Origin: Tetracentron sinense
Lineage: Eukaryota; Streptophyta; Magnoliopsida; Trochodendrales; Trochodendraceae
Direction: 5' to 3'
DNA: 64,000 bases
Assembly (NCBI GenBank): GCA_015143295.1
Contig: JABCRI010001378.1
Location: 1-64,000, forward strand
This document shows positions 6,467 to 61,668 of the stretch, piece after piece. Within the stretch, counting starts at the first letter, position 1, and each line of letters opens with the position of its first letter. The position numbers and the translations under genes were made by a program. The notes under the pieces were generated by a model that had not been told where the DNA came from, made no database searches, and saw only the letters and a program-made list of their open reading frames with translations.

Positions 6467-6823
6467 CTACTTCTCACTTTTTTTCGACACTGTACTTTTT
6501 TTAGTCACTTTGAGTTTCTTTGATGTCTCCACCTTAGTTTGTCTATCCTTGGTCACATTTGTCGTAGTCTTCCCCTGGTCTCCATCTCCATTTTCATCAT
6601 CGTCGCTTTCCTTAGATTTTCGTTTTGCAGGAGGCTTCTTATTTCCACCTCTAGTTGTTTTCTGGCCTTCCTTCAACGTTGCTCCTTTCTTCTCCACATC
6701 CTCGCTTCCTGGTTCTTCTTCATCATCTACATCTCTTTTAGATGATTGTTTTCTCGATCTACCTGGTGTCTTCCCTGCTTGTGTTCCAGTTAGCTTTTGC
6801 AACTCTGGTACATATGCTGTTGT
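6467..6823 (-). CDS. FPG1: FPG1 exon 10, C-terminal tail and stop
   Basis: 118 codons plus TAG. It starts TTAYVPELQKL, then becomes a low-complexity basic/acidic tail rich in Lys, Ser, Asp and Glu (for example KKPPAKRKSKESDDDE). This is typical of plant FPG C-termini and likely carries nuclear localisation signals. An 82-bp intron separates it from exon 9. Confidence 0.93.
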   Translation of the reverse strand, partial: TTAYVPELQKLTGTQAGKTPGRSRKQSSKRDVDDEEEPGSEDVEKKGATLKEGQKTTRGGNKKPPAKRKSKESDDDENGDGDQGKTTTNVTKDRQTKVETSKKLKVTKKSTVSKKSEK

Positions 6824-9800
6824 CTAAAATGAAGGAGATGAGCCCAATTAGATCAATAACTCAGCAATCCAAACCATTTAGAAGGCAGGTTATAGAAAGA
6901 CATACCCGCCCGCCTGCATTGATGAATTCGATTATTTTCCCTGCCACACATTCACATTATTATTTTTTTTCTATTTGAGCTAATCAAAGGTATGCTGAGC
7001 TAGAAAGGAGAAAGCATGCTTGATATCTGAATACCATAAAATCATTACAACTAATTCATAGCTTGGACGGTATATAAGCTTGTATAGTACAACAAAAACA
7101 TTTATTGGTATTGAACTTGAGAAGCGGAAGCATGGAAATGGGAAACTACTACGAATTCTACTGTCATGGGAATGTGTTTTCTTTTTATTCTTCAGAGACC
7201 AATCCCGGGTCACAATGATATAAATAAATTAGCTGACATAAAAAAACAAGAGAAGGAAGTAAAAGAAAGAATAGCAGTAGCACTAGCAGAAGATGCAGGC
7301 TTAGGGGCCATTTGGCATCAATTCTGGTGATTCTCTCATTTTGGAACCTATTTAGGTTTGGTTATAATGAAATATGGTTTTGAACCTAATAACTTTGATC
7401 ACTGAATATACACTTGGATTAGTGGTTATATAATAATTTCTATTTATGTACATGGCATACTAATAGCTGTAAATGATTTGAATAGAATCATGAAATTTAA
7501 GAATAGCTTAAAAGCCAATTTGAAATGAAAAATATGGGTGAAGCATATGTAGCCTAATAATGTATGCAATGTTGTGTTCTTGACCAGATCTCAGTTTTGC
7601 AGTAGGTCTGATTAGGAGATTTCAGAATAATCTTGGATTACCACACTGGATAGTTGCAAAATGTGTATTGAGATATATATACAAGTACATTAAACCATGA
7701 GTCAGATGGTTTGAAAGTTGTGGGATTCTGCGAAGCAGATTTCACAGAAGATCATTATGATAGAAAATCCACCTCAAAATATATATTCTTGATGGGTGGT
7801 GCGGCCATTACTTGGTTAAGTAAAACGCAAGGATGTGTTACTAGATATACTATGGAAGCGGAATACATTGCTTGTAGTACTTTAATGCTTCACTTTTTAG
7901 CACTCACCAACTGTGGTTAAGATTCACTCACCTATAGATTCAAGTAATCCAATCAGGTTTTTTAGAAAAAAATAAATAAATATCCTAAATTTAATTTTGC
8001 TAAGCTTAACCAGGGTTAAAGGAGTGTTAAAAGGGACACGAGGACATGACGGTAAGTTAAGCAACGGACCCCGAGGTCCGCTAATCACCACTCAAAAATA
8101 TACTTTACAAACGGACAAAAAGACGAGATGACCCACAAACTTAGCCGTAATTTTTTTTTTCGGCGGCTGCACCCTCAAACCACCACACCTCACTGTTAGC
8201 CCCCCCGGACGAAAATCCTAGCTCCACCCCTCACTGTATGGATAAAGAGATTCTTAAATGACTTAAGAATTAATGTAATAACTGATAGACCTATTCACAT
8301 ATATTGTGATAATGAGCCTGATAAAAACCATTAAAAATGAGGAAATTGGTCCAAGAGGTAAACATATAGAACTGCAAATGATGTGATTCAGAAAAACCAT
8401 ATCACAATTGTATACATTTCCACTAAGGAAATGGTTGCAGATCCTTTGACCAAACCCATTGGTACTGAAGAATTTAGAAGGCATGACGCATGTAGCCTCT
8501 ATGGGTTTGATATAGAAACATCTCGAGCTTATAACCAAGTGGAAGATGTTGGATATTGAGATTGTGTGGTTACAAGCATTCGATCAAACGGCTATGATTG
8601 TTGATAGGTAAATCTAACCTCAATTATATGAATTCCCACATGCATCACACATCATTACACATGCATTCATGTTTTTCAAATATACTATATGGTATCTATT
8701 TATATTCAACTCCATACATTCATTTGTGCATAATTTAATGTTAGTATTGTGGGACAAAGATCATCAGATCATCGCTGTAACAAAAAACTTCATTTTTTTC
8801 AAAAATTCGCGAATTATTTGCACATTTTTGTTTTGCCGAATTATTCTCCGAATTATTTGCAAATTTTTTGAATTATTTGCGAATTTTCTAAATTATTCCC
8901 GAATTATTTTCTCAAACTTGGCAAAAAACTACTTATTTTGCATATTTTTTAATCAAATTGTTCGGTTTATTTTTATATTTATTAATTTATTTTTTATTTG
9001 TTCCGAATTTTTCCGAACTTGACATTGCCGAATTATTCCCGAACCCCGACTTTGTCACTATGGACAAAGATGCTTTACTACAGTACTACCCAAAGAAAGA
9101 TTGTATAACAGATTTTTACCCAAAAAAAGGCAAGAAATTACAGTATCCATGGCTTATGTATTTAATGCAGATCATAGATTTATAATAGTTGTAGGTTTCG
9201 CAAAGAGATAAAGGGCAAATGAATAATTATGATCATTTGCAGCATGAACTAGAAAAAGCTAATCGAATAGCTAAGAAAATCACAGGAGAAGAAGATATCA
9301 AATAAATAAACATGAATGTTACAAAGAACCACATAATAATGATGTGTATCAAGGTGATTCCAGCTAGGATGGACTGTAATGTATATTAAGGTGAATCCAA
9401 ATACCGAATATGTGAATGATGCGCATACAAATCCTTTAATCAGATATGATATGAGTGAGTGATCTCCAAGTTGCACATCAGGGAACAGCCACTTAGGGAT
9501 TCCATGCAGGTAGAGAAGAACAATGCAAGAACTACCATTTCTGATAGTCACTTCCAAGGTTTAGAGGATGGTGAGACTATATTGTTTTGATGGGGAAATA
9601 TCAATTAAACGTTGTGCCATGAAAGATTATGACTTAAAAGTCAGGAGCCAAACCATCAACAAATGCCTTGCCAGGCTTCTTTTCGCGAGAATGAAAAATC
9701 CAATTATTAGGAAACTGAATACTATCTGCTCCAACTTCCACTGCTTTTTCAATGACCTGTAAAATCAATTGATTTGATTTGTCAAAATGATCATAGATTT

Positions 9801-12800
9801 TAGAACACTATCTTACCATTCACTTTTCCAGTCATTTTGCCCCACCGAAAATGAAACAACCATTCAATTGGAAAGCGGCTGCAGTCAGCATCAACTTCAA
9901 CTGCATACTGAATAACCTACAAGTATTGTCCTCTATTTTTGCCATAAAGATCAAAGGAAACACATGTTTCTCCAAACGAAATTTCTAAAATTGCAAGCAA
10001 ACTATCCAATAAAGAACACTACCACGCACCTCTTTAATGCACTTATGCAAAGTTTCACAGCTCTCTTTGGACAAGCTGGCAGCAATTTGCAGCGGATGAA
10101 TTCTTGCCTGCAAGGAAATGAAAGAATGATAGTAATTAACATTGAACACTTCATTGATTGAAAGAATGAACCTTACAACTATGACAGTTTGTACGATTGG
10201 CATAAAAACTCTGGAAATTTTGACATGATAAAGCAAAACTCAACACAATCATACCATTAACTAAATGTTATGACATGCTTGCTACAGCTACTTTTTATCT
10301 GCCTAAAGCAAATGTCCATATTTCTTAAAATTTTCAATTTGCAAAGTCTCCTTTCTTTTATACAGGAAAAAGGGATGGGACAAAGCCAAATCAGGCTGAT
10401 AGGGATTCTGCTTATTAATAACAAAGTCATTGGGTAATAGCTTTCATTTGGAAAAAATGGCCAAAAATTTGGAGTATCCTCAACAAATTTAATAAGTATA
10501 CTCCATATAACATATTACCAATCTTTTGACAAAGGAAACAGGTAATAGCTTTCATTTAGAAGAATTGACCCGAAAATGCTTAGATGCTATAGAATATTTG
10601 GGCTACATAACATAAGTAGAGGGACACCACATAAAAATTATCTGTTAATTGTTATTGTGATAACTAGTGTAAGTCATCATACTGCCCCAACCATTCATGA
10701 GGAGACTTCTGGATATATAAGAAAGCTATTGTGGATGAAATTGTTTATTTTACACTGCAGGTCAGCAACTGGATTGGAAATATTTGTAATGGTTGCTCCA
10801 AGGCTTAAAATTAAGGATTTAAGAATTAAGTTATCAAATAAAAGAAGTTACGGAAAGTCCACAAAGGATCTGCTAGGCTGTGCATTATATAAAATATGGT
10901 GTGTCCATTGAATAAAGAATTAACAAATTTTATAGCTCTCTGTATATAACCGGCTAATTTTCTTCATCAACTGATACTTCTAGCTAAGATATGAAAATAA
11001 AGTTGGATAGTACATCAAGTTTGAAGAAATCTTGGCAAAAAGATGAGGTAATTAATTTTTTTTTTTTATAGCCTCAAACATGGATGTGATCATGTGAATG
11101 ATAAGAATTCACATTTGCAACTACAACAGAGTGAGCAACTTCTCAGAGGCATTGAAAGAAAAGGGGAAAAATTAGCACATCATTCAAAGTTAATTTTTTC
11201 TTGATCAGCCCAAGTAGAAGTATCTAATTGTTTTTAAATCTTCTTATCCTTAAAGATTGAAATTTGTTTCCGATTTGGCCTCAAATACAAAGAGCAATGC
11301 ATGGCCACTGTATGCTGAAAACAACATTTTTTCCATCAGTAATTTTCTTAGAAAGACTTTTTTTCATGTTCTTTCTTAAGTCTTAACATGAATGCAAATT
11401 TCATTATGAGGTCACACGGAGAGAATTGATGACAAAATTCAGATGTTGCAATCTTAAGAACCGACCCTTTTATTCATAATATGAATATTAGAGATCATCA
11501 AAACCTGATATTAGTATAACACTCTTGATATACTAGGTGACCAGAAAAATATTTAGAATAACTTTCTTCATTCTTTTATAACATGTTACATGCAAGCAGG
11601 GCGGAGCAAAAAAATTTTTCTTGGGGGCCCAAGTACATATATCAAGTATTAATGGGATTGGGGTATGGGCCTTGGGGGTTTGGGGATGTAGGCCCCAAGA
11701 AATTTTTTTTTTGAGTAATGGGTCCATCATGGCCATAAAATTCATTAATGTTGCATTCCAAAAAGGCGTCCGGTAACAAGAAAATTAAACATGGGCCTTC
11801 CCTTTTCATAGAGTCATTCTATAAATAAAATTATGGAAAATGCTTAACTTACCACGCATTTCCACTATGTAACGAAATTCCGGCCTTCATTGGTTCCTGC
11901 TGCCCACCTTTTTAATACCCACTAACTGTGGTTAAGATTCACTCACCCCTAAGGTTCATCCATATAACCTTGGTTTTTAAAAATAATAATAACTATAAGT
12001 TGATTAAGCTTAACCACGGTTAAAGGGCTAATCACTACTCTAAAATACTATATTTTTATTTACTTTTATTTTTATATTATGAAGATTTTTTTTCTCACGT
12101 GCAATCCATGTTTAGTGGAACGCCCACATCTCCCCTGCTTGACACATGTTCCTTTTAACACCCATTAACTATGGTTAAGATTCACTCACCCCTAGAGTTT
12201 ATACATCTACCCTTGGTTTTTATTTAAAAAAATTAACTCCTAAGATAATAAATCTTAACTAGGGTTAAAATGGAGACATAAAGAATCAATCCCTTTAAGT
12301 TATACATATAAAAAAATTACCATATTTTTTGGGGGGGGCCATATAAAAAAATTTACCATATTTTATGGGGGGGGCACTAAATACAAATTTTACATATTAT
12401 ATATATTTTTTAAATTGTATATATAATATAGTGAACTTTCAAAAAATTCGGGGGGCCATGGCCCCCCCTCGCCCCCTAGCACTGCCCCTGCATGCAAGAC
12501 TATAACTTTATTTGATGAGGGGCCTTCTGATTTCCATAGCCTTGTCAAACATCATAAAAAGAGGCTTCCATTTAAATTTGTTAAACAAGATTACAAACTT
12601 ATCAAGGGAGTGGTCAACATGAGTCAAACAAAGGACAAACCACACGATTTGCAGATATTTATATATGCTGAAGGAAGTAGGATATTTTAATATTCCAAAA
12701 AAATTAGGAGATATTGTTGGGATTTAAATGTTTCTTTAATAAATTTTAAAAGTTTAATTTTAACAAAAGAGTAATAGGAAAGTAGGATAAAGCATACAGA

Positions 12801-16600: not shown

Positions 16601-19600
16601 TCCGTTAGGGATAATGTGGACATTTTCGGGCCACCCAATCTCTAGTCTGATTAGGGGGAGTCCTGATGCCTTTTGTCTTTTGATTTGTTTTTTTCTTGCT
16701 CTCTTGTTTACAATAGTTTCTTTTTGGCTTCCTTTAGTTCACTTTTGTATAGGTGGGGCGGTGGTGGCGACGATAGTGTAGTGATGGTGGTGCCATTGAT
16801 GGTGAAGAGGTAATGGCGGTGGTAGCGTGGTGATGGCAGTGGAGGTGACTACTGTGATGGCAATGGTGGTGTTAGTGGTGGCAACAGTGTAGTCAAGGCG
16901 TCTAGGACTCTAGGCGTTTAGGCCTAGCTAGGCGAGGCGCTGCCTAGGCGATAAAAATAATTAAATTATATTTATATATATTAAATATATTTATATGTAA
17001 TATTAATATATACACATTATATAAATAATAGATACATAATTATTTTGAAGTTTTCTAACTTTTAAGGAGATTTTGAGTGTTGACTTTGGATGTTTGTTTT
17101 AAAGTTTAAATGCACCACCTATATCTAAGATAGCGTTTTTAGACTTTAAAAGAGAGTTTTAAAATAGGGTTTAAGAGTTTAAATGATAGTTTTAAAATAA
17201 GGTTTAAAATGGGAAATGTTTAACTTAACGTCGTCGCATTCCACTGTAGAGGAATGTGCGGTCCTCATTAGTCCATGTCCCCCTTTTTAACACCTATCCG
17301 TTACAGTTAAGATTCATTCACCACTAGGGTTAAGCAATCTAACCTTAGTTTTTTAAAACAAAATATATTAACCTTAATTTTCTTAAGCTTAACCATAGTT
17401 AAAGGGGTATTAAAAGGGACACGTGGACACAATATTTGATTACATAGTCAAATGCGTGGTGGGCTAATCACTACCCCATTTAAAATATGGTTTAAAAGAG
17501 GTTTTTAAATGAATTTTTAAAATAGGATTTTAAAGGAGGGTTGAAAAGAGGGGTTTAAAATAGGTTTTTAGAAGAAAAAAAAACTGTACGAACCGCCTAG
17601 GCAACCGCCTAGCGCCTAGATGCCTAGGCGACCGCCTAGGCGGCAAATAGTGAATTTTGCTTGCCTAGAGGGGTGCCTAGGCGGTTCAGGCCCAAAAACG
17701 CCTAGGCGACGCCTTGACTACACTAGGTGGCAATGGTGGTGGAAGAGGTGGTGGTCGGGCTTTGGGAGAGATTTTGGTGGTGGAGGAGAGCCAAAAGATT
17801 TTACTGAAAAATGACATAAAAAATTTTAAAAGGTACATCTTTTCCGGAAAATTGGCCTTTTTACGTAAAACATTTTACTTTCACAAAATTTTAAATACAA
17901 ACAAACAAGCAAAAAATAGCATTTTCAGCTAAATTCATTTATTTCCCGCTATTTTACTTAGAAACAAACAGGGGCCTTATTGAAAGTTGAATTCCTGTAT
18001 GAGTTTGATGCAAGTGGAACCATAATAAATCAATAAATTGTAACAAAATTAAAGCAAATAGTGATGTGAAAGGAAATGGATGGTACACTGACTTGATATA
18101 ACACTTCATCCGCAATCCAATTGCCAATGCCTGCAATATAACTCTGCAAATCGAAGAGTCATTTAAAACAATTTTACAGTAAAAAGAATCAAACTAAAAT
18201 TTAGAATGATATATATGAACTAGATAAATATTATATGATAAGTAGAACTTTGCTACAGAGGGACAAAGTCTTAGGCAATTCTGTCAATGTAGTTAAAACA
18301 ATTTTAAGCCTATTCAACCATGATGAGAATAAAAAATCTAACTAAAAGAAAATACATTTATGAAGAGATAAAAAGAGCAAATACCATACATGATACTTTA
18401 ATGGTCCTATCAATCTTCTAAATCTACGAGTAAAGCATGAATCCAAACATGTACAAGTGTTCTAGGGCAACTAATAGTGGAGGGCTACTTAAAGACAGTT
18501 TCCTTTTTCTTTTCTTATTTATTTTTCTCTTCTTCTGATAAGTCAGACTATTGAACATGCATTTTGAACGAATCCTTTCCACTTATAATTATTCCTAATC
18601 TGTGGGTTCTTTTTATGTTAGTTCAACTACGGGAAATCTTGGTCGTTCATTCTTTTAGCTGAGATCTTTTGAGGAGCCTCCCAGAATCAAGCAAAAGGCT
18701 TGTCCCTTTTCTCTTGAAGTACAAATTGGATAGATCAATTATGTAAATGACTAAAAACCCAACTTACAGAATTTAAAGGTTCTAGAGTCTTCAACCTGTA
18801 AAAGGCACCATATTTTTCTTTTTTCTTTTTTTTTTCTGGTGTGTGTGTGTGTGTGTTGGGGGGGGCAAACATAGTTGCTGTTATGTTTCTATTCTTCCTT
18901 TATTTAGAGCTCAAGTTCCACCTTTTTGAGAGATTTCTAGTCCTTGCTTTTTAAGGCTTTAAGCTCCCAGAACCCTTTGCTTATTGCTGATCCAAGCCCA
19001 TTCTGCTTGCATGTTGATGTTAGCTCAAATCCCACCTTGTTGAGGAATTTCGAGTCCCCACTTGTTAAAGCTTTAGGCTCCCAAAACCCTTTGCTTATTG
19101 TTGATCCAAGCACACTCTGCTTGCATGTTGATGTTCTAAGCTGTGTCCTTACATTTGTCTTATTGCTGATCCAAGTCCTTACCGCCTTCTTTTCTCCTAT
19201 CTTCTATTTTATTCTCTTTTCTCTTCAATATTCACTTCCTTGTCTTCTTCTTCTTCCCTCTTCTCCTGACATATCCAAAGGAATCATCCTTGAAAAGTCA
19301 TGACAATCAAGTTTTGGTCTGTCCTTGAGGATCCACTGGTAGCACTTGATTTCGGTTGTGTTCTCTTAACTAGTGTACCAAAATATGTGAAGAAATCAAA
19401 TCTACACAGTCTGATCTGGACTTGATTTGCATCATTCGCAAGGTAGTTGACACTTGGCACATCAATTTTCAGTGAGTCGGAAAGAATGTACACTACAATT
19501 TAAAGAATTGGTATTGTTACTGACAGACATCAAATTAGTTATTAGTAAAATTGAGGAGATGTAAAAGAGGAGGCATTTCTTGCTTCACCATCAAGCTAAA

Positions 19601-25600: not shown

Positions 25601-28600
25601 GAACAAATCTACTGCTTAGGGAGTCTTCTCCAGATTGATTCACTTCTGACATAATTGAAACGTGACAACAACCACCACTTTCACAAAGACTTGGTTCATA
25701 CAAACATTTTCACCAACACTTGGAGGCCCTATAGGCCAAACCACTTTCCTTAGGCTTAATAAGTATCATCCAACTCTTCCATAACACCAAGAAAAACATA
25801 ACTGTCCCAATCAGCAATAGAGATCAATACTTTACCATCCCCAAGCTCAAACAAGGGTTCCATAACCTTCAAGAATAAAAAAGAGTCAAAATACCCATTT
25901 GAAGAATCAAATATGCCTCACAACATAGGCTATAACTCCTCCAAAACTTATCCAAAAGACTTCAAACCACTTTTACAACCTTTCTCCATAAAAATTGAAA
26001 CCCCTATGGCGATCAAACCTCATAAAAAATAAGCAAAAAAGATAGGAGTCATTTGAATGCAAATTGTAAAAAATGAAAAAAGGTTTTGTTTGGGGGGGAA
26101 AATCACCCTAACTCCTTCAATAATCATCCAAAACCCATGATACCAGTCCCAAAAAACTCACATAAAGGAGTTCTACCAGATCATACCTTCAAACCTAGGT
26201 TCCAAGACCTGTTCCGTACGGCTGCTGACGTCATCCTTACGGACAGTGATGTCAGCCAACGATTTCCTCCTTTTCTGCCTTGGTTGAACTTTAAGAGAAC
26301 TCCCCTTTAATCCTTTGTTGCTCTGATAAGTGATACCAAGTTGAAAAGGTGGTTTGTCTTTAGGGTTTGAATGGAGAAGAAAGAAAGAGAAGGAAAGAGA
26401 ATAGAGGAGAATAAATTGAAGAGAGTGAGAGCTTAGCTTCTAAGCCTCCTCTAATTTATTATTTATATGGTAGCCAAGTTATACATATACCCTTACAATC
26501 AAAGAAGGAAAAACAAAGACATAGATAGATGGACATAAATGCCCTTACATAAAATGTCACACATGCACACATTCTCAACAGAACGCATCTAATCTCTTGA
26601 AAGGATATACCAATTCATAGTTGAAGCTACTAACATCTCCAAAATTACATGGGAAGAACTTTTATAGAAGATATATGCACACTTAGTAAGCACATAAACA
26701 TAATCTTAGGAATAGCTGCATAAAGAGGCAATGTATTTTCAACCTTGTCAATTAAGTTTGTTTTTCTTTCTTTTTTTTATCGATAAGATAAATATATACA
26801 GATCAAAAGAAAGAACATGAGAGTTCACCGATAGAAATATAATATCATATTTATATATATATATATAAATTTTGTGAACTACTTGGTACTTTTTACAAAA
26901 GTTCTATCCATTACTTAGCAAGCACATAAACATAATCTTAGGATTAGCAATATGAAGAGGTATCTTGATTAACTACTTAACTTTATAAACTACTTGGCAC
27001 TTTTTCAAAAGTTCTATGTATTATTAGCAAGCACATAATATAATTTAGAGATATCTGTGGAAAGTTACAAAGTATTTTCAACCTGATCAAGTAATAGAGC
27101 CTTAATTGCAATCTTCTTTTTGCTCAAGGAGTTAGCAAATTCATCCATTGTCATAGGCTCCAACAGTGCATCTGGACCAAGCTCAGATATTGGGGGCGTA
27201 GATGCTGGCTGCATTAACAAACCCATTGCCACAAGAAAATAAGGAAGCTTATTCAAAGGACGGAAGAATGAACATCAAAATGAAAACTATAGACAAATGG
27301 ACGAATGATACATCTTTGAGCAAGCGAACTTTTGCGAATCTCCTCTTATCGATAAAAGAAAACTCTAAACCATCATCTAGCTGCAACAACAACAAAAAAA
27401 CCAAAAAAAAAAAACAAATATTTGTTATGAATGTCAATAAATAGGAGAATAACACTGCATGTGCTGAAATCAACGGATAATCATGGAGACAAATAACAAA
27501 AACAAGCATGATCTCTACTATTTGCATGATCATTTGAAAACAAGTCATATTACTAAGGAATGTCATACAAATATACAATCCAACCATATTCTGACCCATA
27601 GAACTTCTTCGGGACCTTTCATAGTTGTACTAACATCCAAAGAACTGCAATAGATCCGATAGTTACATTACAATCATAGTAACAAAATTCTCTGATTTTT
27701 TTTCCAAAAAGTCCCAAATAAGATGCAACTTTTTCGTTGAACGGTTAATTCACGAAGTAATTGCAACCTTTTGAAACAATTGCAACTTTTTCAAAAACGT
27801 CACAATTTGCAAATTAAACACAAATTATTCATGACTTTTTTGAAAAAGAATCCCGAATAAATATCCGATATATGAAATATATATTTTATAGAAACAATTG
27901 CAACTTTTTCATAAAAGTCACAATTTGCGAATTAAACACAAATTATTCATGGCTTTTTGAAAAAGAATCCCGAATAAATATCCGATATATGAAATATATA
28001 TTTTATAGAAACAATTGCAACTTTTTCATAAAAGTCACAATTTGCGAATTAAACACAAATTATTCATGGCTTTTTGAAAAAGAATCCCGAATAAAGATCC
28101 GATATATGAAATATATTTTTTATAGAAACAATTACAACTTTTTCAAAAAAGTCACAATTTGCGAATTAAACACAAATTATTCATGGCTTTTTGAAAAAGA
28201 ATCCCGAATAAAGATCCGATATATGAAATATATTTTTTATAGAAACAATTACAACTTTTTCAAAAAAGTCACAATTTGCGAATTAAACACAAATTATTCG
28301 CAACTTTTTGAAAAAATATCGAATAGATATCCGATATATGATATACATTTTTTATACGTTTTCATAATTTAAAATATCAATTATTATTAATTCATCTCTT
28401 GATAGTCATTTATATGATTTTTTTCCCAATTTTTGCTATTTTTCAGAACTTTTCCTTAGCTGAATAGTTCTCAAACTCTAACTTGATAACTAATAACTAT
28501 GGTTACAACCACACTTGTATAGAAGCTATGAGCAGGGTGGGATCCTCGCTTCTCAGGAAGCTTGCATCTCAGACTTGCTTCCCCGGAAGCTTTCTTCCAT

Positions 28601-31600
28601 TGTGTTCCATTTTATATTCAAAGAGAGTTATGTATATGGGATGTGATGGAATAGACCTGTGTCTACAGCCTAGGGTGTAGACCCTGAGCAAGAATGGTTT
28701 GATTGGAACCAGCAGAAATATTGAAACCCTAGCTCCTTGTATAAGAGAAGAGAAAGAGGGAGAAGATGAGAGTATTTGTAGGATACACTCTCTCTCCTAA
28801 TTATATTATTATAAAATATTGTAAGGACATAAATACCCTTACTAATGTGTAAACACGAGCAAACTAATAAATAAAATAACATGCTATGTGCTTAATGATT
28901 TAGGCACATCACAACACTCTCCCTCAAGTAAGGCATAGAAGTCCAACATGCCCAGCTTGCCAATAATAGAGTGATGACGATTAGAAGCAACCCCATTTGT
29001 AAGTATGTCAACTAACTGATCATCTATCTTGACAAACGGAAGGCTAATCGTTCTTGAAGCCACATTTTCACGAATGAAATATCGATGAATCTCGTTATGC
29101 TTTATTCTGTCATGTTGGACAGGATTGTATGCAATACTCATTGTTATCACATAATAGTTTCATCTATAACTTAACTGGAAATCCTAGCTCAGTCATAAGA
29201 ATTTTGATCCATAACAACTCAAATGCACCAAGTGTCATAACCATGTATTATGCCTCTAGACTGGACCTTGCTAAAACTGCATGTTTCTTGCTTCTCCGTA
29301 TAACTAAGTTTCTACCTACAAAGGAACAATACTCTGATGTGGATCTTCTATCTGTTACCAAACATGCCCAGTCATCATCTGTATAGCCTTCAACCTATAA
29401 GTGCCCTTTCTTCTGAAAAATAAGTCATTTACCCAAAGATGATTTGAGATACTTCAGTATTCTTTCAGCTGCCTCGAGATGTATCGTCTGTGGTGTATGC
29501 ATTCCAATACAAGGGAGTTCCATGGCCCCTGGCTCTTGAGGAAGTCTCGTCCATACCACTTTCAGACATTTATCATTTTTGGGGTAATAGAACACAATAT
29601 AAGTGAATCCAAGGCTTCTTCAACCCCCCAACTAGGATGAAAATAAGGCTGATTTATACAAATACATCCATCACATTGATTCAAGTATCACCAGAACATT
29701 CAAACTTCAACTATAGGACTTTATAGTCCAAAAAGGAGTAAACCAGGAGGCGTTAACATTCCCTCTTACAAGGTACATTCGGATCCAAGAGAAGGGGGTA
29801 TCCATACGTCAGCTGACATCAATCGTACGGCCAACTGACGTCAGTAGCTACTATAGTTGCTTTGTTAGTTGCTTTGTGATGTTAGTTCTTTCCTTTTCAA
29901 TCTCCTCCAATGTTTTTAAAAGAAAACTACTCTAATACCAACCAAGTAGAAATATTAACCCTAATTCCTTGTATGAAAAGAAGAGAAAGGGGGAGAAGAC
30001 TTCTTTGGAGAAGAGAAAGAATGACTGAATGAGAGTATTTGCTGGATACACACTCTTCATTTTACATTATTATAAAAACATTGTAAGGACATAAATACCC
30101 TTACTAATGTGCAAACAGGAGCACACTAATAAATAACATAACATGCTATGAGATCAATGACTCAGGCCCATCACAACAGAACCTAAGGCACCTACTTATC
30201 CTCACATATCTCATGTAAGACAAAATCTAAGGTATAGTTGTCCATCCTAATATAATGGGAGTGAGATACCTATCACTCATTCCTTGCTAAGAATTTTTTG
30301 AGTCTCTCTTCTTGCTTCTTGTTCTAGTAATTAAGCTTACAATACCAAGTTTTTAGCATGGAATATTCTTAAGGGGAACCATCAAAATGGTTAGTGTATT
30401 GCACCTTGTGCTTGCTTTTAAAATATTCTCTTTCAAAAATCTCCACCACAATAATCCCCCTCCCTCGGGAAGCAAAATTCTTGTGCAATCTAATTCAATC
30501 CCAAAATTAAATTTACTTTGTAGTTATAGAAGTAGAACATTATTAGGATGAGAACGACTATTTGCAACAAGATTTTATCTTATTCTAGGATAGACTTGCA
30601 TCATAGCTAAACAAAATATTGGGACAGAGCTTAGACAATGATGTATGGACTAGAGTCAGTTTTAAACAAATTTCCTGATTTCGTTTTAATCTGGAATTGA
30701 TTGCAACCTCTATTAAACACCCTCTTTATGTTTCAAATATGCCAAAGATTAAGAAATTGCATAAATTAGGAATCAGTATGCCAAAGATCAAGGACCAAGA
30801 TAGCAGCATGAAAGTGTAATAACTTGCCACAATGGCAATGATGTGTATTTATAAAGAAAAAAGGTCCTAAATACAACTGTAAAAAAATGATTTCCTATGT
30901 ATTGATGAAAGTGATGACTCTTACTTCTATAAATAACTTGGAATATTTGGAAGGCCATTCATCAGCATCATTTACAGCAGATCTGTAAGCACCACTCATT
31001 TATGTTATGAGAAATAATAACAGCAATCCGTCCCATATAAGGAAAAATTATAATCGAACAAGCATCATAGAGGAACAAGTCTGAAGTGAATTATGTTGGG
31101 TCATTTATAATCAACACAAAGGGAAACAAATGGAGCTGCCGCAACATAATAAGAGAATACAATTTCACAAAAAGAAAATGTGCACTACCCAGCTCTTCTA
31201 CATTGAAGTAAACAGTATCTCTTTTATAAAAGAGAGAGAGAGAGTGGTATCCAAAATCTCCTTTATGTTAATTGAAAATGTCATCTCCTAGATCAGGTTA
31301 TGGGGAGTCCTTGGTGGGTAGAGTTCTCTAAACTCACCCGTTTCAAGGTGGTAATGGGGAGGAAATCAAGTTCTGGCTTGATCCCTGGAACAGCCCTTGC
31401 CCTCTTCGGCAAGATTTTGAGAGTCTTTTCTTGGTTGCCTTTAATAAGGAGGCCTCGGTAGCTGATTATTTAGAGCATCAAGAGGGGGAAGCCATTTGGA
31501 CTCCCAGTATGAGAAGAAATCTATTTGATTGGGAGGTTCAAGACATGGTGAGTCTACTCTCATAGCTGCATCAGGTTACTCTAGGTCCGCTTGAGAGGGA

Positions 31601-37600: not shown

Positions 37601-40216
37601 TTGCCATTGAGTGTATAGACGCCAAGGTGAGAACTAAAATCCTGAGAATTCTTTGCAAGGTGGACATGGAGAAGGACTACAATCACATAAATTGGGAGTT
37701 TGTCTTGTATGTTCTAGGCAGGATTGGATTCAGCGAGAAGTTGAGGTTTTGGATGTACTCATGTATGTCCTCAGTATCTTTCTCCTTTCTGTTAAATGGT
37801 AGTTCAGTGGGCTATTTCCCCAACTCCAAAGGCTTGAGACAGGGGGACCCTCTTTGGCCCTTTATTTTTGTGTAGGCTTCGGAGGCTTTGATCCAGTTGT
37901 TGTCGAAAGCAGAGGGTCTATTTTTTGAATGTTTCGGGTGGGTGCTAGCAGAATGAGGATATCCCATCTCTAATTCGTGCATGATACTCTTATCTTTGGG
38001 AGGGCTTCGAGAAGGGACCTCCTTTATCTCATATGTATTCTAAGATGCTTTGAAGCAGTGTCAGGATTAAGAGTTAATCTTGTCAAATCAGAGTTTTTCC
38101 GGGTAGGCCATGTCCCTATTTTAGATCATCTGGCTATTTGTCTAGGTTGTCAAGTGTGTTCTCTTCCTTCGGTGTATTTGGGCATGTCGTTGGGTGCAAG
38201 TTCTAAAGCGAAATCAGTATGGACCCTGTGCTAGATCAAATTGTTAAAAGACTATCAGGATGGAAAGCATCTTACTTATCAAAAAGGGGAAAATTGACTC
38301 TTATCCAAAGCACCTTACGGGGCTTGCCTACTTTCTTCATGTCGACTCTTACTATCCCAAGATTGGTGGCCAAGGCCATTGAGCAACTACAGAGGGAGTT
38401 TATGTAGAGTGAAAAAGGAGATGCAGTCAAATATCACTTAGTCGCCTAAGGAAGCTAGGGGTTTGAATCTTAAGCCGCTGACCCAAGTAAATAAAGCTTT
38501 ATTAGGCAAATGGGTGTGGAGATTTGGCGATGAAAGGGGCAGTTTGTGGCGGGCTATGATTGTTGCCAAGTATGGGGAAACATCATGTTAGATTCCTAGA
38601 GAAGTGAGAGGTACGCATGGTCTGGGATTTTGGAAGGAGATTATGGCCAATGCCAACTTGGTCGTGACGTATTTCAGATTTCGAGTAGGGAGAGGGTCGG
38701 AGATCAGATTTTGGAAGGATGTATGGTCTAGATCTACTCGACTAATAGATGATTTCGGCAATCTATATGTCCTAGCCTCCAACAAGGATGCTCTAGTGGA
38801 GGATTCATATGAGAGGCAAGATTCAGGGTAGTTTGGTGTCCAAGGATGAGGCGAGGCCTTAATGACTGGGAAATCAGTGATATGCCTCGTCTTTTGGAGT
38901 GCATTACCTTGTTAGCCCTTCCTCCAGAGATAAGGGACTGCAGGTTGTGGTCCAGTAGTAGCCAAGGTCAGTTCTCGGTTAAATTATTGTTAAGATCGAT
39001 ATCCCCCAGCTTCAGTGAGACTTTCCCTCATAAAGTGGTGTGGAATCCTGGTATACCTTCCAAAGCCACTTTCTTCTTATGGATTGCAATGTTGAACAAA
39101 ATTCTTACCTGCAAGCACTTGCAACATAGAAGTTGGAGTTTGGCAAATAGATGTTATATGTGTCTCCAAGCAGAAGAAACGGTGGATCATCTCCTTTTGC
39201 ATTGCCCAGTTGCTCAAGAGATAATGAGGCTTTTTCCTATCCTGTATGGGGGTTGCATGGGTGTTTCCAACATCCATCCATGATTTCTTATCTTGTTGGC
39301 CCCGGGAGAACGGGGTGGGGGCTTGTGAGGCGATTTGGGAGGTGCTTCCTGGAGCTATTTTTTGGTCTTTGTGGAAAGAAAGAAATCACAGAGTATTCGA
39401 GGAAGTTATTTCTACCATTCCCCGGATCTGCGATCACATTGTAATAGGGAGGATCTTCGGGAAGTATTGTACTAAAAATGTTTTGTTCCTAGGGGGTTAG
39501 GACCAGGCTCGTTTTTTCTCAGCTTTTGAGTTTACAAGCTTGTAAGCTCCTGACGCCGGGGTTCTTCCTGTATCCCTTTTTATTTAATGCATTGCTTTAT
39601 CGATCAAAGAAAAAAACAAGATCCATTCAAATAAATTTAGCACCAAATCAAGGAGACGCAGAGAAGCATTTGTGGTCAGTGTTTTTTTCTCTTTTTTTTG
39701 CAGAAAAATCTAATAAATTGCATTAATATACAATAAACCAGAACCAGATGATCATCACCATAAGTACAGAGATTAAACTTATGCCTTACCTCTTATATTT
39801 CGTTACTGCGACCCCTTTAATATATATAGCACCCGCCATTCCTGAAATACCACAAAAGCTCATGAATCAAAAGCAATGGAACCCTAGATTTCTGAAACTA
39901 GAAATGGGCAAACACTTCATTAAACCCTAAAATCAAATCTTTAAAAAAAAAAACATTTAAAAATGCATAATATTTCAATAAACTCACCAAACTGAAACGA
40001 AGGGAACGGAGGAGAATCGAGCTGGAGCCACATGTTCTTGCCCTTTCTATGAGCAGAAACGATAGTTTTGCCAAGGAGAAAGGCCTGGAAGTCAGAGGGA
40101 GAGACGCCATCGATGACCTTGGAGTCGTCTGCAACAATCGAACTTCTGATCTTCTTTCCGAGACAATGCTCTTCGATTGCTCTTCTCGCTGCCTCTACTT
40201 CGGGAAGCTCAGGCAT
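6467..40216 (-). CDS. FPG1: Formamidopyrimidine-DNA glycosylase (FPG/MutM type), whole gene
   Basis: This is a plant FPG/AtMMH-type bifunctional DNA glycosylase/AP lyase, which removes oxidised purines such as 8-oxoG and formamidopyrimidines in base-excision repair. I assembled it by eye from GT-AG exons that all join in phase: 40216-39988, 39841-39790, 30982-30925, 27380-27312, 27208-27083, 18143-18093, 10107-10030, then 8a (9916-9817) or 8b (9756-9654), 6940-6906 and 6823-6467. The product is 384 aa with 8a or 385 aa with 8b, close to the Arabidopsis protein as I remember it. Visible landmarks are the N-terminal MPELPEVE (catalytic Pro after Met removal, then Glu), the HRKGKNMW lysine, the helix-two-turn-helix GIGNWIADE, and a zincless-finger segment AGGR-TTAYVPEL. 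The Lys/Glu-rich tail of about 100 residues looks nuclear. No stop or frameshift interrupts it. Large TE-filled introns stretch the gene to 33.75 kb. Family assignment is very sure; expression is not shown. Confidence 0.95.
6906..6940 (-). CDS. FPG1: FPG1 exon 9
   Basis: A 35-bp micro-exon completing GKIIEFINAGGR. The Arg sits in the zincless finger that in plant FPG replaces the bacterial zinc finger. Acceptor TGGCAG and donor GTATGT. It joins in frame to either 8a or 8b. Confidence 0.9.
7360..8543 (+). pseudogene. Ty1/copia pol remnant (RT end and RNase H)
   Basis: A decayed copia polyprotein 3' part. A reverse-transcriptase tail is followed by an RNase H segment: FCEADF, DRKSTSKYIFLMGGAAITW, then TMEAEYIA, resembling the family's CDADFAG, DRKSTSGY and TEAEY blocks. 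Coding resumes after an insertion at about 7,893-8,245, with HIYCDNEPD and ADPLTKPIG. Several stops and frameshifts make it non-functional. It lies antisense in the FPG1 intron before exon 9. Confidence 0.85.
7893..8245. mobile_element. MITE material inserted in the copia RNase H
   Basis: The insertion interrupts the RNase H reading frame after IACSTLMLH. Its left 148 bp (7893-8040) is a copy of the GTTAAG MITE family described at 17271-17428. Its right end (AGCTCCACCCCT) looks like the terminus of a CAGGGGCGGAGC-type hAT element, so it may be nested. I could not define a clean target duplication. Confidence 0.55.
8547..8760 (+). mobile_element. Probable copia 3' LTR start
   Basis: TGTTGGATATTGAG starts immediately after a purine-rich tract (GTGGAAGA) following the pol stop, the usual polypurine-tract/LTR junction. 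The far end is not clear; sequence similarity to anything recognisable stops near 8,760. Confidence 0.5.
8790..9060. repeat. Degenerate GAATTATT-type tandem repeat
   Basis: The motif GAATTATTTGC or CCGAATTATTC recurs about every 20-30 bp. No coding content is recognisable. From about 9,060 to 9,650 there is non-coding intron sequence with no feature I can name. Confidence 0.5.
9654..9756 (-). CDS. FPG1: FPG1 alternative exon 8b
   Basis: 103 bp encoding VIEKAVEVGADS...NNWIFHSREKKPGKAFVD. It ends in the same phase as 8a but at a weak GTTTGG donor. The HSREK form is the one closer to bacterial and plant FPG. Only 60 bp separates it from 8a. Confidence 0.88.
9817..9916 (-). CDS. FPG1: FPG1 alternative exon 8a
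   Basis: 100 bp encoding VIQYAVEVDADC...EWLFHFRWGK, ending one base into a codon at a strong GTAAGA donor. It is the counterpart of exon 8b and resembles the alternative segment known from the AtMMH isoforms. Using both 8a and 8b would add 203 bp and shift the frame. Confidence 0.85.
10030..10107 (-). CDS. FPG1: FPG1 exon 7
   Basis: 78 bp, 26 codons. It begins ARIHPLQIAASLSKESCE and completes the DNA-binding helices. Acceptor TTGCAG and donor GTGCGT, phase 0, so either exon 8a or 8b can follow in frame. Confidence 0.93.
10108..11588. other. FPG1 intron 6, unannotated part
   Basis: AT-rich intronic DNA. Frames of up to 111 codons (10,576-10,911) do not resemble any family I know and lack coding bias. 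No terminal repeats noticed. Confidence 0.4.
11597..12490. mobile_element. Non-autonomous hAT-like element with 8-bp TSD
   Basis: The 894-bp element is flanked by a perfect 8-bp duplication CATGCAAG (11589-11596 and 12491-12498). Ends are CAGGGCGGAGC... and the inverse ...TAGCACTGCCCCTG, the CAGGGGCGGAGC type common among plant hAT-related MITEs. It encodes nothing. Two partial copies of the GTTAAG MITE family (about 11907-12026 and 12148-12270) are nested inside it. G/C homopolymer blocks mark its subterminal regions. Confidence 0.85.
12499..13620. other. FPG1 intron 6, no feature recognised
   Basis: Non-coding sequence. A stretch near 13,130-13,200 (ATCGATATTGAAGG...) resembles the CGATATT-rich ends of the element at about 15,398-16,482, suggesting a fragment of the same family. 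Nothing else is assignable. Confidence 0.3.
13624..13685. repeat. (CT)n then (TTC)n microsatellite
   Basis: About 24 uninterrupted CT units followed by four to five TTC units. A TATA-like stretch and leader-like sequence precede it, so it may sit in a former LTR or 5' leader, but no gene is recognisable. Confidence 0.95.
14813..14925. repeat. Three 38-39-bp tandem units
   Basis: Units starting CACTAGTAGCATTAGCATTT occur at 14852 and 14890, with a diverged first unit at 14813. It lies immediately upstream of a LINE fragment. The preceding 13,686-14,812 is non-coding with no recognised feature. Confidence 0.8.
15398..16482. mobile_element. CGATATT-rich element interrupting the LINE
   Basis: The left end ATTTGAAATATCCTCGATAT and the right end (inverse GGTTTTGAATGTCGATATTG) form an imperfect terminal inverted repeat, and the LINE coding sense resumes on each side. 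Flanks CTCCCAGG and GCCCCCAAG may be a decayed target duplication. It encodes nothing recognisable and contains a SINE-like copy at about 15,790-15,960. Confidence 0.55.
15790..15960 (+). mobile_element. tRNA-derived SINE-like copy
   Basis: Shows an A-box-like TAACTCAGTTGG and, about 33 bp on, a B-box-like GAGTTCAACTC, then a body ending GTTACCAAAAAAAAG. The same 3' end (GGGACACCCTCCGTTACCAAAAG) recurs at about 63,690, so these are two copies of one family. Confidence 0.6.
16885..17725. mobile_element. hAT-like MITE with long CCTAGGCG inverted ends
   Basis: 841 bp flanked by a perfect 8-bp duplication GGTGGCAA (16877-16884, 17726-17733). Ends CAGTGTAGTCAAGGCGTC and inverse GACGCCTTGACTACACTA. 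Both subterminal regions are dense in CCTAGGCG and its variants, so the arms could fold into a long hairpin. It has no coding capacity. A GTTAAG-family MITE (17271-17428) is nested inside. The element interrupted a GGTGGT-rich stretch (16,750-16,880 and 17,726-17,790). Confidence 0.88.
17271..17428. mobile_element. GTTAAG-family MITE, best copy
   Basis: 158 bp. The left end GTCCATGTCCCCCTTTTTAA and the inverted right end GTCCACGTGTCCCTTTTAAT form a terminal inverted repeat, with internal TTAAGATTCA...CTTAACCATAGTTAA. Related copies occur at 7893-8040, about 11907-12026, about 12148-12270 and, in part, 40868-40905. Confidence 0.75.
17734..18092. other. FPG1 intron 6 end
   Basis: GGTGG-rich remnant and AT-rich intronic sequence up to exon 6. 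No feature recognised. Confidence 0.35.
18093..18143 (-). CDS. FPG1: FPG1 exon 6
   Basis: 51 bp, 17 codons, SYIAGIGNWIADEVLYQ. This is the core of the helix-two-turn-helix DNA-binding motif. Introns of 8.9 kb and 8.0 kb flank it. Confidence 0.93.
18144..18907. other. FPG1 intron 5, 3' part
   Basis: AT-rich non-coding DNA with a short (GT)n tract at about 18,838-18,856. No other feature recognised. Confidence 0.35.
18908..19140. repeat. 114-bp tandem duplication
   Basis: Units at 18908-19021 and 19022-19135 share AGCTCAA..CCACC and GCTCCCA.AACCCTTTGC. A partial third unit (TTATTGCTGATCCAAGTCC) follows near 19,160. A 119-codon frame (18,944-19,303) exists only because 114 is divisible by 3. 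Confidence 0.85.
19284..20150 (-). pseudogene. Ty1/copia gag-protease remnant
   Basis: Minus-strand fragments include SQEEVEAFLHVL and the protease signature YWIIDSGASDHMT (Asp-Ser-Gly-Ala), followed by LFSTYHICS, and further down SLKIDVPSVNYLAND. Several stops and frame changes are present. It probably belongs with the gag fragment at 24,740-25,703, with the hAT-containing block between them inserted later. Confidence 0.75.
20192..20242. repeat. (TA)n and (GA)n microsatellite
   Basis: An AT dinucleotide run followed directly by a GA dinucleotide run. Confidence 0.9.
20740..22680 (-). pseudogene. hAT-family transposase remnant
   Basis: Order on the minus strand fits a hAT transposase. A BED-finger-like part (about 22,560-22,680, with CNLRCKLCNTFF) is followed by FNVAERDELDHLIARAFYAS and GLSFNMIRS (22,024-22,335), a DUF659-like DG region, and near 20,830-20,997 the C-terminal dimerisation segment NPLAWWGNQGSNAPTFTSL. 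Multiple stops and frameshifts are present. No intact terminal inverted repeats were found. It lies in FPG1 intron 5 in the same orientation as the gene. Confidence 0.82.
22790..23420. repeat. Purine-rich degenerate tandem repeat
   Basis: GGGACAGACGAATGG-like cores recur at about 22,870, 22,930, 22,985 and 23,085, separated by poly-purine stretches and ACCCTTTGTCTTTTAGC-type segments. Non-coding. Confidence 0.6.
23524..24049. mobile_element. hAT-like MITE with CAGTGTTTTAAAA ends
   Basis: Ends CAGTGTTTTAAAAGATG and inverse CAATGTTTTAAAATGCG. Flanking octamers GTAAAGGC and GCAGAGGC match at 6 of 8 positions, consistent with an old 8-bp duplication. Subterminal GAGGCTTA/TAAGGCTC motifs alternate in both arms. 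No coding content. Confidence 0.65.
24273..24528. mobile_element. hAT-like MITE with CAATGTTGTCA ends
   Basis: 256 bp. Ends CAATGTTGTCAAAACAGGAC and inverse CAGTGTTGTCAGAATTGGAC. Flanks GGCAGCAG (24265-24272) and GGCATCAG (24529-24536) match at 7 of 8. The interior is rich in GAACCGG. Confidence 0.8.
24740..26580 (-). mobile_element. Ty1/copia 5' end: LTR, primer site, gag
   Basis: On the minus strand: LTR 26580-26342 (TGTTGAGAATG...CCTTTTCA, 239 bp), then a primer-binding-like TTGGTATCAC/TTATCAGAGC resembling initiator-Met tRNA complements, then gag. Gag fragments are VMLNGTNYLSWSPSARLYL (25,488-25,703) and a damaged zinc knuckle CEHYGRILHTKETCW near 24,800, where the second Cys is Tyr. Pol is absent here; a protease fragment 4.6 kb on may be its continuation. 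Confidence 0.8.
27083..27208 (-). CDS. FPG1: FPG1 exon 5
   Basis: 126 bp, 42 codons. It encodes ISELGPDALLEPMT and the KKKIAIKALLLDQ segment leading into the helix-two-turn-helix. The intron to exon 4 is only 103 bp. Confidence 0.94.
27312..27380 (-). CDS. FPG1: FPG1 exon 4
   Basis: 69 bp, 23 codons. It encodes the LDDGLEFSF...DKRRFAKVRLL strand region of the FPG N-terminal domain. Acceptor TTGCAG and donor GTATCA; phase 0 at both ends. Confidence 0.93.
27700..28372. repeat. 117-bp tandem repeat array
   Basis: Units begin at about 27867 and 27984 and recur through about 28,340; a diverged leading unit runs from about 27,700. Because 117 is 39 codons, one plus-strand frame stays open across four units (27,872-28,372) and would give a repeated YIFYRNN..FF peptide. 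I judge that a by-product of the period rather than a gene. It lies in FPG1 intron 3. Confidence 0.93.
28711..30178 (-). mobile_element. Internally deleted Ty1/copia element with TSD
   Basis: The element has a perfect 5-bp duplication GAACC (28706-28710, 30179-30183). The 5' LTR is 30178-29945 and the 3' LTR 28916-28711; they are alike but differ by an indel (234 vs 206 bp). A primer-site-like TGGTTGGTATTAGAG adjoins the 5' LTR. The only coding left is the RNase H end (minus 29,150-28,884: IAYNPVQHDRIKHNEIHRYF, QLVDILTNG), with stops upstream. Gag, protease, integrase and most of RT are missing. It lies in FPG1 intron 3, same strand. Confidence 0.9.
30184..30924. other. FPG1 intron 3, remainder
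   Basis: Non-coding AT-rich sequence leading to exon 3. No feature recognised. Confidence 0.4.
30925..30982 (-). CDS. FPG1: FPG1 exon 3
   Basis: A 58-bp exon encoding SAVNDADEWPSKYSKLFIE, with acceptor TTACAG and donor GTAAGA. The phase fits exons 2 and 4. It lies just downstream of the LINE-filled intron 2. Confidence 0.92.
31293..32324 (+). mobile_element. 5'-truncated LINE with diverged TSD
   Basis: 1,032 bp bounded by ATGTCATCTCCTAGA (31278-31292) and ATGCCATCCCCTAGA (32325-32339), 13 of 15 identical, with an A-rich 3' end. The content is the C-terminal zf-RVT region (KEFVYHLLLHCPVARDVWF) and 3' tail (WKERNKQVFED). It is the same type as the neighbouring full LINE and lies antisense to FPG1 in intron 2. 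Confidence 0.85.
32747..35369 (+). pseudogene. LINE ORF1 (DUF4283-like nucleic-acid-binding protein)
   Basis: Pieces in order: a DUF4283-like N-terminus (GRVVSIFERGRGFSIEIQLG, then PLEGGRRRWIIFPKGGQG, KAVLGALKQII), the LPLHLWNEETLKGIGD...GGIIAID block (33,560-33,886), then low-complexity linkers (33,957-34,430 and 34,605-35,369). The last stays open for 254 codons but has no domain I recognise. Stops separate the pieces. Confidence 0.8.
35920..39290 (+). pseudogene. LINE ORF2 (endonuclease, RT, zf-RVT)
   Basis: Order seen: an endonuclease (SIMCIQETKL at 36,007; FTWSQAGNNILASRLDRFLV and FSDHVSL at about 36,480-36,610), then RT (DKAPGPNGFSMEFYK, DFRPISLVSSTYKIL at about 37,450; GLRQGDPL at about 37,831). 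The catalytic FADD box reads FVHD at 37974-37985. The zf-RVT follows (CYMCLQAEETVDHLLLHCPVA at about 39,140-39,210). There are many in-frame stops and frame changes. Confidence 0.9.
39790..39841 (-). CDS. FPG1: FPG1 exon 2
   Basis: A 52-bp exon encoding MAGAIYIKGVAVTKYK, a signature of plant FPG. Acceptor TTTCAG and donor GTAAGG are clear. It is only 146 bp from exon 1, whereas the next exon lies 8.8 kb away. Confidence 0.93.
39988..40216 (-). CDS. FPG1: FPG1 exon 1
   Basis: This exon encodes residues 1-76 plus one base. The start is the ATG before PELPEVEAAR, because Pro-2 and Glu-3 are the catalytic residues and must follow the initiator Met. A more upstream in-frame Met at 40231 is rejected for that reason. 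It ends SPPFPSFQF-G at a GTGAG donor. The H-K-G-K segment near residues 56-60 holds the conserved lysine. Confidence 0.95.
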
Positions 40217-60146: not shown

Positions 60147-61399
60147 TTACAATGGCATTCTGAGGTTAAGCCTTCGTAGCCACACTGAGTGAAGTACCAT
60201 GTGAAGCACATCGAATCGCTGAGCGGGCCGATTAAGAACAAAATGTTTCTGCACTCTCATCACATTCTTCTGCATTTTTAGATACTTATCTATCGATATC
60301 CCTTGCAAGATCGTCTTAATTTCCGGTATTCTCTCAACAGGAATTTGAACCGAGAACTGGCTCCAATCAAGTACATCGCTAAATGGAAGCACGTAATTAT
60401 CGGAAATTATCACAGGAACACAACCGGAATATATGGCCTCAACCACTCTAGGACTTGCAACTTCATACCCACTTGGGCACAAGCAAAACTTGCTTTGATC
60501 CATTGCTTTAGTGTAATCAAGAGGTGTAGGGAGGTACTCGTGAACTTGAACTTCGTTATCCTTGTCTTTCCAATGCTTGAGCAGTATCTTCCTTATGTTG
60601 CCATGCGCCCTACCAGCAAAGAAAGCGAGGATCGAACGCTTATTAGGGGCTGGACTAACGTGCGGTTGGCCTAGTTCTCCGCGGTGGATGTGTATCTCTG
60701 GCAATGAGACATCTCTTCTCGGTCGGAAACTTTCAGAGGCGTTGGCATTGCAAAGAGCTCTAATGAAGTTCTTGAAAAGCTCTGGGTTGGCATTTGAAAC
60801 ATCTGGTGCCTGAAGAGTAGAGTTCACAATCTTAAGAGTATTACATTTCCCTAGACTTGAGCTATCCATGGCATAGTAAAAGAAGAAGAACGGTAATACT
60901 ATGTCTATTTTCCTTCTCATCCGCTTTTTAAAAAAAAAAAAAAAACATGAGGATAAAAAATTAAGACATTTTTTTTTACAGAGCCTATTACTATGTGGAT
61001 AAGAGAAGAAATGGATCTGTACGGAGAAGAAGTGGAGGAAATACCCAATCATGACAAGAAACCATGAAATGATCAGCTCCAGTGCTTCTGTTCCAGTAGG
61101 GGTACTTATTTGATATGATGTTGACGTAGTCTTTAACGATAGTTTGAAGGGGATTCCGAGAGTAGGTGGTGATGGGCATGTAGATAAAATGAATAACATT
61201 AACCACACTAAAGGGGAGGAAGAATGCGTGAGCCTCGTTGGGGTGTCGCGCCTTGAATCGACTTTCCCCAGAATCCATCTCGGCAATGAACTGCCCCTCT
61301 ATGGAGTAGATGTTGTTCAATGGCCCGTCGTGGACGAGGGGTGGCTCTCCTTCCCTATATGTCCACACCTTGAATATCTTCTCCATCTCAATGTAGCTC
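60147..61399 (-). CDS. GT47 exostosin-family glycosyltransferase, 3' two exons
   Basis: Plant exostosin-like (GT47) proteins are Golgi type II membrane glycosyltransferases acting on wall polysaccharides or glycans. Exons 61399-61045 and 60809-60147 (GT-AG intron of 235 bp) join in phase to give about 338 residues: [42 protein letters not shown], then [79 protein letters not shown]. It ends in TAA. It most resembles the Arabidopsis At5g03795/At3g07620-like clade. The catalytic region is uninterrupted, but the membrane-anchor exon upstream is not in the 2.6 kb to the window edge. Confidence 0.92.
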
Positions 61400-61449
61400 C
61401 TGATTATATTAGAAACAAATAAGTATGTGTTAATTAGACTTATTAACAT

Positions 61450-61651
61450 TTTTTTTTTTGGAACTCGGGGTGTCCCGACCCTTTGGGTAGGATTGAACCC
61501 CGAGAGTGCGACGTGAGCCTGCAATCTGCCACACCAGGTAAGTCTGGATAAACCCATGCGAGGCTGACCCCAAAGGGGGAGTGAGAAATAGAATCCAGGA
61601 CCCTCCCACTTGGGGAAAGGCCAGGAACCACTGGTCCACCCCTTTGGAGTT
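61450..61651 (-). mobile_element. SINE with 17-bp TSD in the GT47 intron
   Basis: About 200 bp. It is flanked by ATTAGACTTATTAACAT (61433-61449) and ATTAGGCTTATTAGCAT (61652-61668), 15 of 17 identical. The poly-A tail is on the minus strand (T run at 61,449-61,459). A-box-like GGACCAGTGGTTCCTGG and B-box-like GGTTCAATCC are visible. It lies directly upstream of the 61399 acceptor. Confidence 0.82.
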
Positions 61652-61668
61652 ATTAGGCTTATTAGCAT

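Follow-up and report, generated by a model that had tools for sequence, protein, structure and literature searches.

Homologous neighbouring exons in the FPG DNA glycosylase gene of Tetracentron sinense are probably ancient, mutually exclusive alternatives

OGG1 and FPG occur side by side in plants, and the relative roles of the two have been described as poorly understood (PMC6728418). The closest described system is the Arabidopsis gene AtMMH/AtFPG (At1g52500), whose isoforms, according to a review, diverge near the exon 7/8 boundary (PMC10573277). Sugarcane MutM/Fpg homologues also occur in two forms that are alike up to the H2TH region and divergent after it (Scortecci 2007, via PMC10573277), and in a reporter strain of E. 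coli (fpg mutY) both forms are described as lowering mutation (PMC10573277). As described there, however, these are two homologues whose shared part is not identical, not alternative exons of one gene. Here, we analyzed the first 64,000 nucleotides (nt) of the 71.6-kb Tetracentron sinense contig C640 (JABCRI010001378.1; hereafter, the window), which is part of a 1.16-Gb genome assembly of 1479 contigs (GCA_015143295.1). The window carries an FPG gene of the same family as AtMMH/AtFPG, with two neighbouring homologous exons, 8a and 8b, between exons 7 and 9. Arabidopsis isoforms that differ in this region had been mentioned in the original prediction for this DNA; our comparison with Arabidopsis was made through the review and the AtFPG1 structure.

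Mutually exclusive exon pairs are, to our knowledge, rare in plants. Alpha-tropomyosin is another case of mutually exclusive exons with a short spacing between donor and branch point. The human mutually exclusive clusters described in PMC5740500 resemble the FPG pair in having homologous neighbouring exons, a frame shift on double inclusion and a gap that is too short by the usual criterion, whereas the FPG pair lies in a plant gene and is known here from the DNA sequence alone. In the plant gene MAF1/FLM, one segment of the protein can be encoded by either of two exons, but its cryptic exon is described as likely recent (PMC3266260), whereas the FPG pair predates the split from Arabidopsis. 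Short-gap mutually exclusive tandem exons are thus known as a kind; what may be new is an ancestral-type exon 8a retained beside a derived 8b in a plant glycosylase, and parts of this may already be in print.

The window held one complete and intact plant FPG gene, a MutM/Fpg homologue on the minus strand, which spans about 33.7 kb, its ATG lying at 40216 and its stop codon at 6467. Exons were placed at 10 exon positions by tblastn with AtFPG1 and one motif search, and the GT..AG borders were set by hand (Table 1). The aligner gave the protein 76% identity to AtFPG1, of which 21 residues were unseen. In a Pfam scan without the tail, Fapy_DNA_glyco, H2TH and Fpg-like_C all scored above their curated cut-offs in both isoforms.

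Exons 8a and 8b each start in phase 0, and the last base of each is the first of a split codon. The chain 7-8a-9-10 encoded a protein of 384 amino acids (aa) and the chain 7-8b-9-10 one of 385 aa, with no internal stop in either. Inclusion of both exons brought a stop after 256 aa, right after 8a, and inclusion of neither brought one after 223 aa. By this frame logic, a full-length protein needs exactly one of the two exons, whichever splicing mechanism operates. The original prediction had described two phase-matched FPG exons of 100 and 103 bp lying 60 bp apart, either of which joins exon 7 to exon 9 in frame while both together shift it; the lengths, phases, shared residues and reading frames all proved right, as did the donor sequences (ATG/GTAAGA for 8a, ATG/GTTTGG for 8b). 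The strand was left unmentioned in that prediction.

To assess the relationship of the two exons, their translations were aligned. They share the motif VI..AV.V.AD...FP..W.FH and are identical at 19 of 36 residues. The alignment scored 72, whereas 2000 shuffles averaged -22.5 (sd 8.6) and reached 17 at most, so the likeness is not due to chance. An open frame alone is weak evidence for an exon, since 97 of 728 overlapping windows of 99 nt in the nearby intron were also open. Over 29 aligned codons, in which codons beyond the length differences were paired by hand, the mismatches fell at first, second and third codon positions in the numbers 6, 5 and 18. The nonsynonymous divergence (dN) was 0.25 and the proportion of synonymous differences (pS) was 0.8, at which synonymous sites are saturated. 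These values indicate that the 8a/8b pair evolved under protein-level constraint, which a pairwise test cannot apportion between the exons.

Exon 8b matched AtFPG1 (PDB 3twl, 3twk) at 31 of 35 residues, while 8a matched it at 21 of 36. The crystallised AtFPG1 therefore carries an 8b-type segment, and the duplication is older than the split of Tetracentron sinense from Arabidopsis. The pair shows the sequence hallmarks of mutually exclusive tandem duplicated exons, namely adjacency with homology, matching phases, and unproductive double inclusion and double skipping. These observations suggest that 8a and 8b are probably ancient tandem-duplicate exons of the FPG gene that serve as mutually exclusive alternatives for one protein segment. 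If so, they would form a very old plant exon pair of this kind with a simple logic of spacing plus frame.

Exclusivity would be enforced twice, by the frame shift, which is certain at the protein level, and by steric interference between the splice sites. The best candidate for the branch point in the gap is TTGAC, predicted from the consensus, whose A would lie 35 nt after the 8a donor and 25 nt before the 8b acceptor. With deletion mutants, Goodall and Filipowicz found plant introns to need at least 70-73 nt (cited in PMC1626468, which itself derives a 73-nt cut-off for plants). For human mutually exclusive exons, the steric criterion given in PMC5740500 is a distance of less than 50 bp from donor to branch point. 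The proposal that the 60-bp gap is probably too short to be spliced as an intron thus agrees with both the plant minimum and the predicted distance of about 35 nt, but it is weakened by a validated 56-bp intron mentioned in PMC6310983, where the species is not stated in the relevant passage. Steric exclusion by the 8a-8b spacing appears likely, although it would be unnecessary for protein output, because the frame shift already makes double inclusion unproductive.

The strongest competing explanation, to which we give slightly less than an even chance, is that the 60-nt gap can be spliced, that exclusivity comes mainly from the frame shift followed by nonsense-mediated decay, and that the unproductive transcript tunes the FPG level. 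The early stop right after 8a, the GT..AG ends and 75% A+T content of the gap, its good branch-point candidate and the 56-bp intron are all compatible with this. Among the human clusters, double inclusion would cause a frame shift in 377 (60%), and 57 (9%) have a donor to branch-point distance below 50 bp (PMC5740500). However, just 83 (22%) of the human clusters that shift the frame had reads joining the two exons (PMC5740500), so that the frame shift is usually not the sole control there, and the gap lies below the minimum from the plant deletion mutants.

We further examined whether donor strength or RNA structure could set the choice of exon. The energies of U1 pairing were -8.0 kcal/mol for the 8a donor, -3.9 for 8b, -1.3 for exon 4 and -3.4 for exon 6, and the matches to the donor consensus were 7/9 for 8a, 5/9 for 8b, 4/9 for exon 4, 7/9 for exon 6 and 5/9 for exon 5. 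The 8b donor is weak, as had been claimed, but it is not unusual for this gene, and AtFPG1 uses the 8b type; a bias towards 8a is not safely deduced from donor strength alone. A 461-nt fold around the exons had a minimum free energy of -102.2, while shuffles averaged -108.8 (z +1.29, one sequence); the fold was thus no better than shuffles and gave no signal for RNA secondary structure as the switch. At gathering scores, the window had 0 Rfam matches.

To determine which exon is the older type, bacterial homologues were compared. In the first genome scan, the best 80 of 571 homologues were taken. Where exon 8 aligns, the three nearest among them (L029, L030 and L031) have W-L-F-x-x-R-W-G, like 8a, whereas 8b and AtFPG1 have W-I-F-H-x-R-E; these three were the only carriers of W[LM]FxxRW among the 108 first-pass homologues that included the best 80. 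The phyla of these three were then searched; at E up to 1e-45, plant-type Fpg was found in 13 of 294 genomes searched in Planctomycetota, 9 of 288 in Verrucomicrobiota (both sets being even samples of larger groups) and 66 of 291 in Armatimonadota. From these 88 genomes, 52 proteins were read, namely all 13, all 9 and the best 30 of the 66; 47 were read by script, and the exon-8 region was read separately in the 5 without the usual start motif. The Trp of W[LM]FxxRW was present in 52 of 52 (47 + 5). Residue 241 was Leu in 46, Met in 6 and Ile in none, and Gly247 followed the second W in 49. Exon 8a carries W246, L241 and G247, while 8b and AtFPG1 carry none of the three. Arg at position 235 had been considered as a further mark of 8a on the strength of three sequences; it was dropped, R being present in only 22 of 47.

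A tree of 52 rows was then built without the exon-8 region, from 35 W-bearing proteins, 15 others and 2 plants. The plants fell inside a 39-row clade (94/86), the other members of which were 2 Actinomycetota rows and the 35 W-bearing bacterial proteins, grouped together at 93/89. An earlier 33-row tree agreed, with a 13-row clade (100/98) whose internal order it did not fix. Among viral contigs, a query of 83 aa from the C-terminal part gave 10 pattern matches and no relative, and query A1 gave 28 relatives, none with W[LM]FxxRW. The sequence comparison gives good support to the view that the finger encoded by 8a is still of the type seen in the nearest bacterial relatives (W[LM]FxxRWG) and that 8b, without the Trp, is derived. 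Most simply, the segment in the plant ancestor would have been of the 8a type, and 8b would be a derived copy in which the Trp was lost and two residues were added near the turn. The two exons do not look equivalent, 8a appearing ancestral and 8b derived, a point that the original prediction had missed. A lineage of plant-type Fpg with W[LM]FxxRW, present in parts of three bacterial phyla, groups with plant FPG, and this bears on the origin of the plant gene.

A search of the genome for the gene family revealed one other FPG place, on the 36.6-Mb contig C19. In this copy, read from loci L111-L115, no exon or splice-site dinucleotide is missing, the two reading frames (384 and 385 aa) are open, and the gap is again 60 nt long, with 59 of 60 bases identical. 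The comparison of C19 with C640 covered the pieces at about 2.4-42.6 kb and 59.3-64.7 kb; both pieces were collinear, intergenic sequence included, with main blocks of 88-98% identity. The C19 copy is most likely the other haplotype, although it may be a recent large duplication. Contig C640 has the appearance of an alternative haplotype that was not merged with C19 (at about 10.68-10.745 Mb), with intron insertions and deletions of several kb.

The differences between the copies weigh against an equal standing of the two exons. In 8a there were 3 replacement and 0 silent differences, including R235C and E228Q; 8b had 1 replacement, exons 1-7 and 9 together had 2 replacements and 4 silent changes, and exon 10 had 3 replacements. 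The excess of 8a over exons 1-7 and 9 was nominally significant by codons (3/33 vs 2/232; Fisher, p 0.015) and was not significant by bases (3/100 vs 6/698, p 0.09). This replacement excess, the strongest evidence against an equal importance of 8a, hints at relaxed constraint on that exon. It accords with an alternative that we regard as possible though rather doubtful, in which 8a is a fading exon, ancestral and now rarely used in Tetracentron sinense, and 8b supplies the working enzyme, as the 8b type of AtFPG1 might suggest. On the other hand, in either copy 8a is still open, retains its two splice sites and encodes the Trp, its donor is closer to the consensus than that of 8b, and most differences between 8a and 8b lie at third codon positions.

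To elucidate what an exchange of exons would change in the enzyme, exon 8 was placed on AtFPG1. By alignment it corresponds to residues 222-256, from the end of the helix after H2TH to the start of the zincless finger. The alternative segment would comprise the end of this helix, the site of a longer loop in ordinary bacterial Fpgs, and the first part of the finger. Three ordinary bacterial Fpgs (L036, L038 and L039) have eleven more residues there, which are missing from both 8a and 8b; hence the swap does not restore the bacterial capping loop for 8-oxoguanine (8-oxoG) and instead alters the finger strand and turn. An exon switch may retune the contacts of the finger with DNA or with the lesion. 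Excision of 8-oxoG by AtFPG1 is almost undetectable and its apurinic/apyrimidinic (AP) lyase activity is potent, and AtFPG1 is the only isoform characterised biochemically according to PMC6728418, whereas PMC6651865 describes two characterised variants, of which MMH-2 is inactive. Tentatively, and with less confidence than we place in the exon pair itself, we suggest that the 8a isoform retains a bacterial-type RWG finger that exclusive splicing swaps with the plant-derived, Trp-less 8b, and that the two isoforms have different lesion preferences or a different AP-lyase behaviour; the weak 8-oxoG removal by AtFPG1 need not then apply to 8a. A simple switch of specificity between isoforms is opposed by the report that, in an E. 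coli reporter, isoform 1 suppresses mutations induced by 8-oxoG (PMC10573277). The structures and most of the reported biochemistry concern AtFPG1, that is, the derived exon, and the best-studied plant form may show half of the output of the gene. If our interpretation holds, substrate range and isoform ratios could be tested with two proteins that differ within about 34 residues.

A short protein is another conceivable product. If 8b were often left unspliced at its weak GTTTGG donor, it would act as a terminal exon; only five more codons follow the split Gly codon before a stop, giving a protein that ends in VDGLAPDF. This would be comparable to the shorter Arabidopsis isoform, which is reported to deviate just before the capping loop and gave no rescue (PMC10573277). 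However, 8b joins exon 9 in frame, and in AtFPG1 an 8b-type segment is followed by exon-9-type sequence, which makes frequent use of 8b as a terminal exon improbable.

Several comparisons weigh against the reading of 8a as the ancestral type. Position 235 was R in 22, K in 13 and Q in 8 of the 47 bacterial proteins and is not diagnostic. Within the 39-row clade, the 2 Actinomycetota proteins (one being L041) are without the Trp motif, and the tree does not fix the branching order of plants, W-bearing bacteria and these rows. Against the more distant relatives L032, L033, L035 and L037, 8b outscored 8a by 1 to 10, although 8a outscored 8b by 3 against L034; in L032-L035 the Trp lies one residue further on (REWD, RGWG). 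The Pfam model Fpg-like_C gave 83.6 bits for 8b and 40.1 bits for 8a (cut-off 27.1). An 8b-type ancestor in plants, with the bacterial look of 8a due to convergence, would suit the unsettled branching order and the 8b-like Pfam model and crystallised enzyme, but it is very unlikely, as it needs an independent gain of W246, G247 and L241, which occur in 52, 49 and 46 of the 52 bacterial relatives.

Table 1. Positions of the FPG exons and of the segments adjoining exons 8a and 8b in the window
Feature	Position	Length	Strand	Basis
FPG exon 1 (start codon 40216)	39988..40216		-	tblastn to AtFPG1, 77 aa, 80.5%; gene model
FPG exon 2	39790..39841		-	tblastn, gene model
FPG exon 3	30925..30982		-	motif search, gene model
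FPG exon 4	27312..27380		-	tblastn, gene model
FPG exon 5	27083..27208		-	tblastn, gene model
FPG exon 6	18093..18143		-	tblastn, gene model
FPG exon 7 (H2TH region)	10030..10107		-	tblastn, gene model
Exon 8a, probable ancestral-type alternative; encodes WLFHFRWG as in the closest bacterial relatives	9817..9916	100 bp	-	gene model, homologue comparison
Gap between 8a and 8b, GTAAGA..TTTTACAG	9757..9816	60 nt	-	GT..AG ends, 75% A+T; branch-point-like TTGAC
Exon 8b, probable derived-type alternative; type found in crystallised AtFPG1	9654..9756	103 bp	-	gene model, AtFPG1 comparison
8b read-through past the GTTTGG donor: rest of split Gly codon, LAPDF, TAA; possible short C-terminus	9634..9653		-	translation
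FPG exon 9	6906..6940		-	tblastn, gene model
FPG exon 10 and stop codon (Lys/Glu-rich tail)	6467..6823		-	tblastn, gene model

Other features of the window lie in the FPG introns and beyond the gene. Just upstream of exon 4, intron 3 contained a tandem repeat of 117 bp in five copies with 95% matches (27773-28356). Intron 2 is 8.8 kb long, and three open frames of 185-262 aa were present on its opposite (+) strand at 32957-37546; two of the three were scanned, both without a Pfam match. In the same intron, positions 37367-37546 (+) gave a weak match to RVT_1 (reverse transcriptase) of 21.3 bits, below the cut-off of 29.6. At 60147-61680 on the minus strand, two overlapping open frames matched Exostosin_GT47 with 150 and 58 bits and represent a neighbouring glycosyltransferase gene in pieces.

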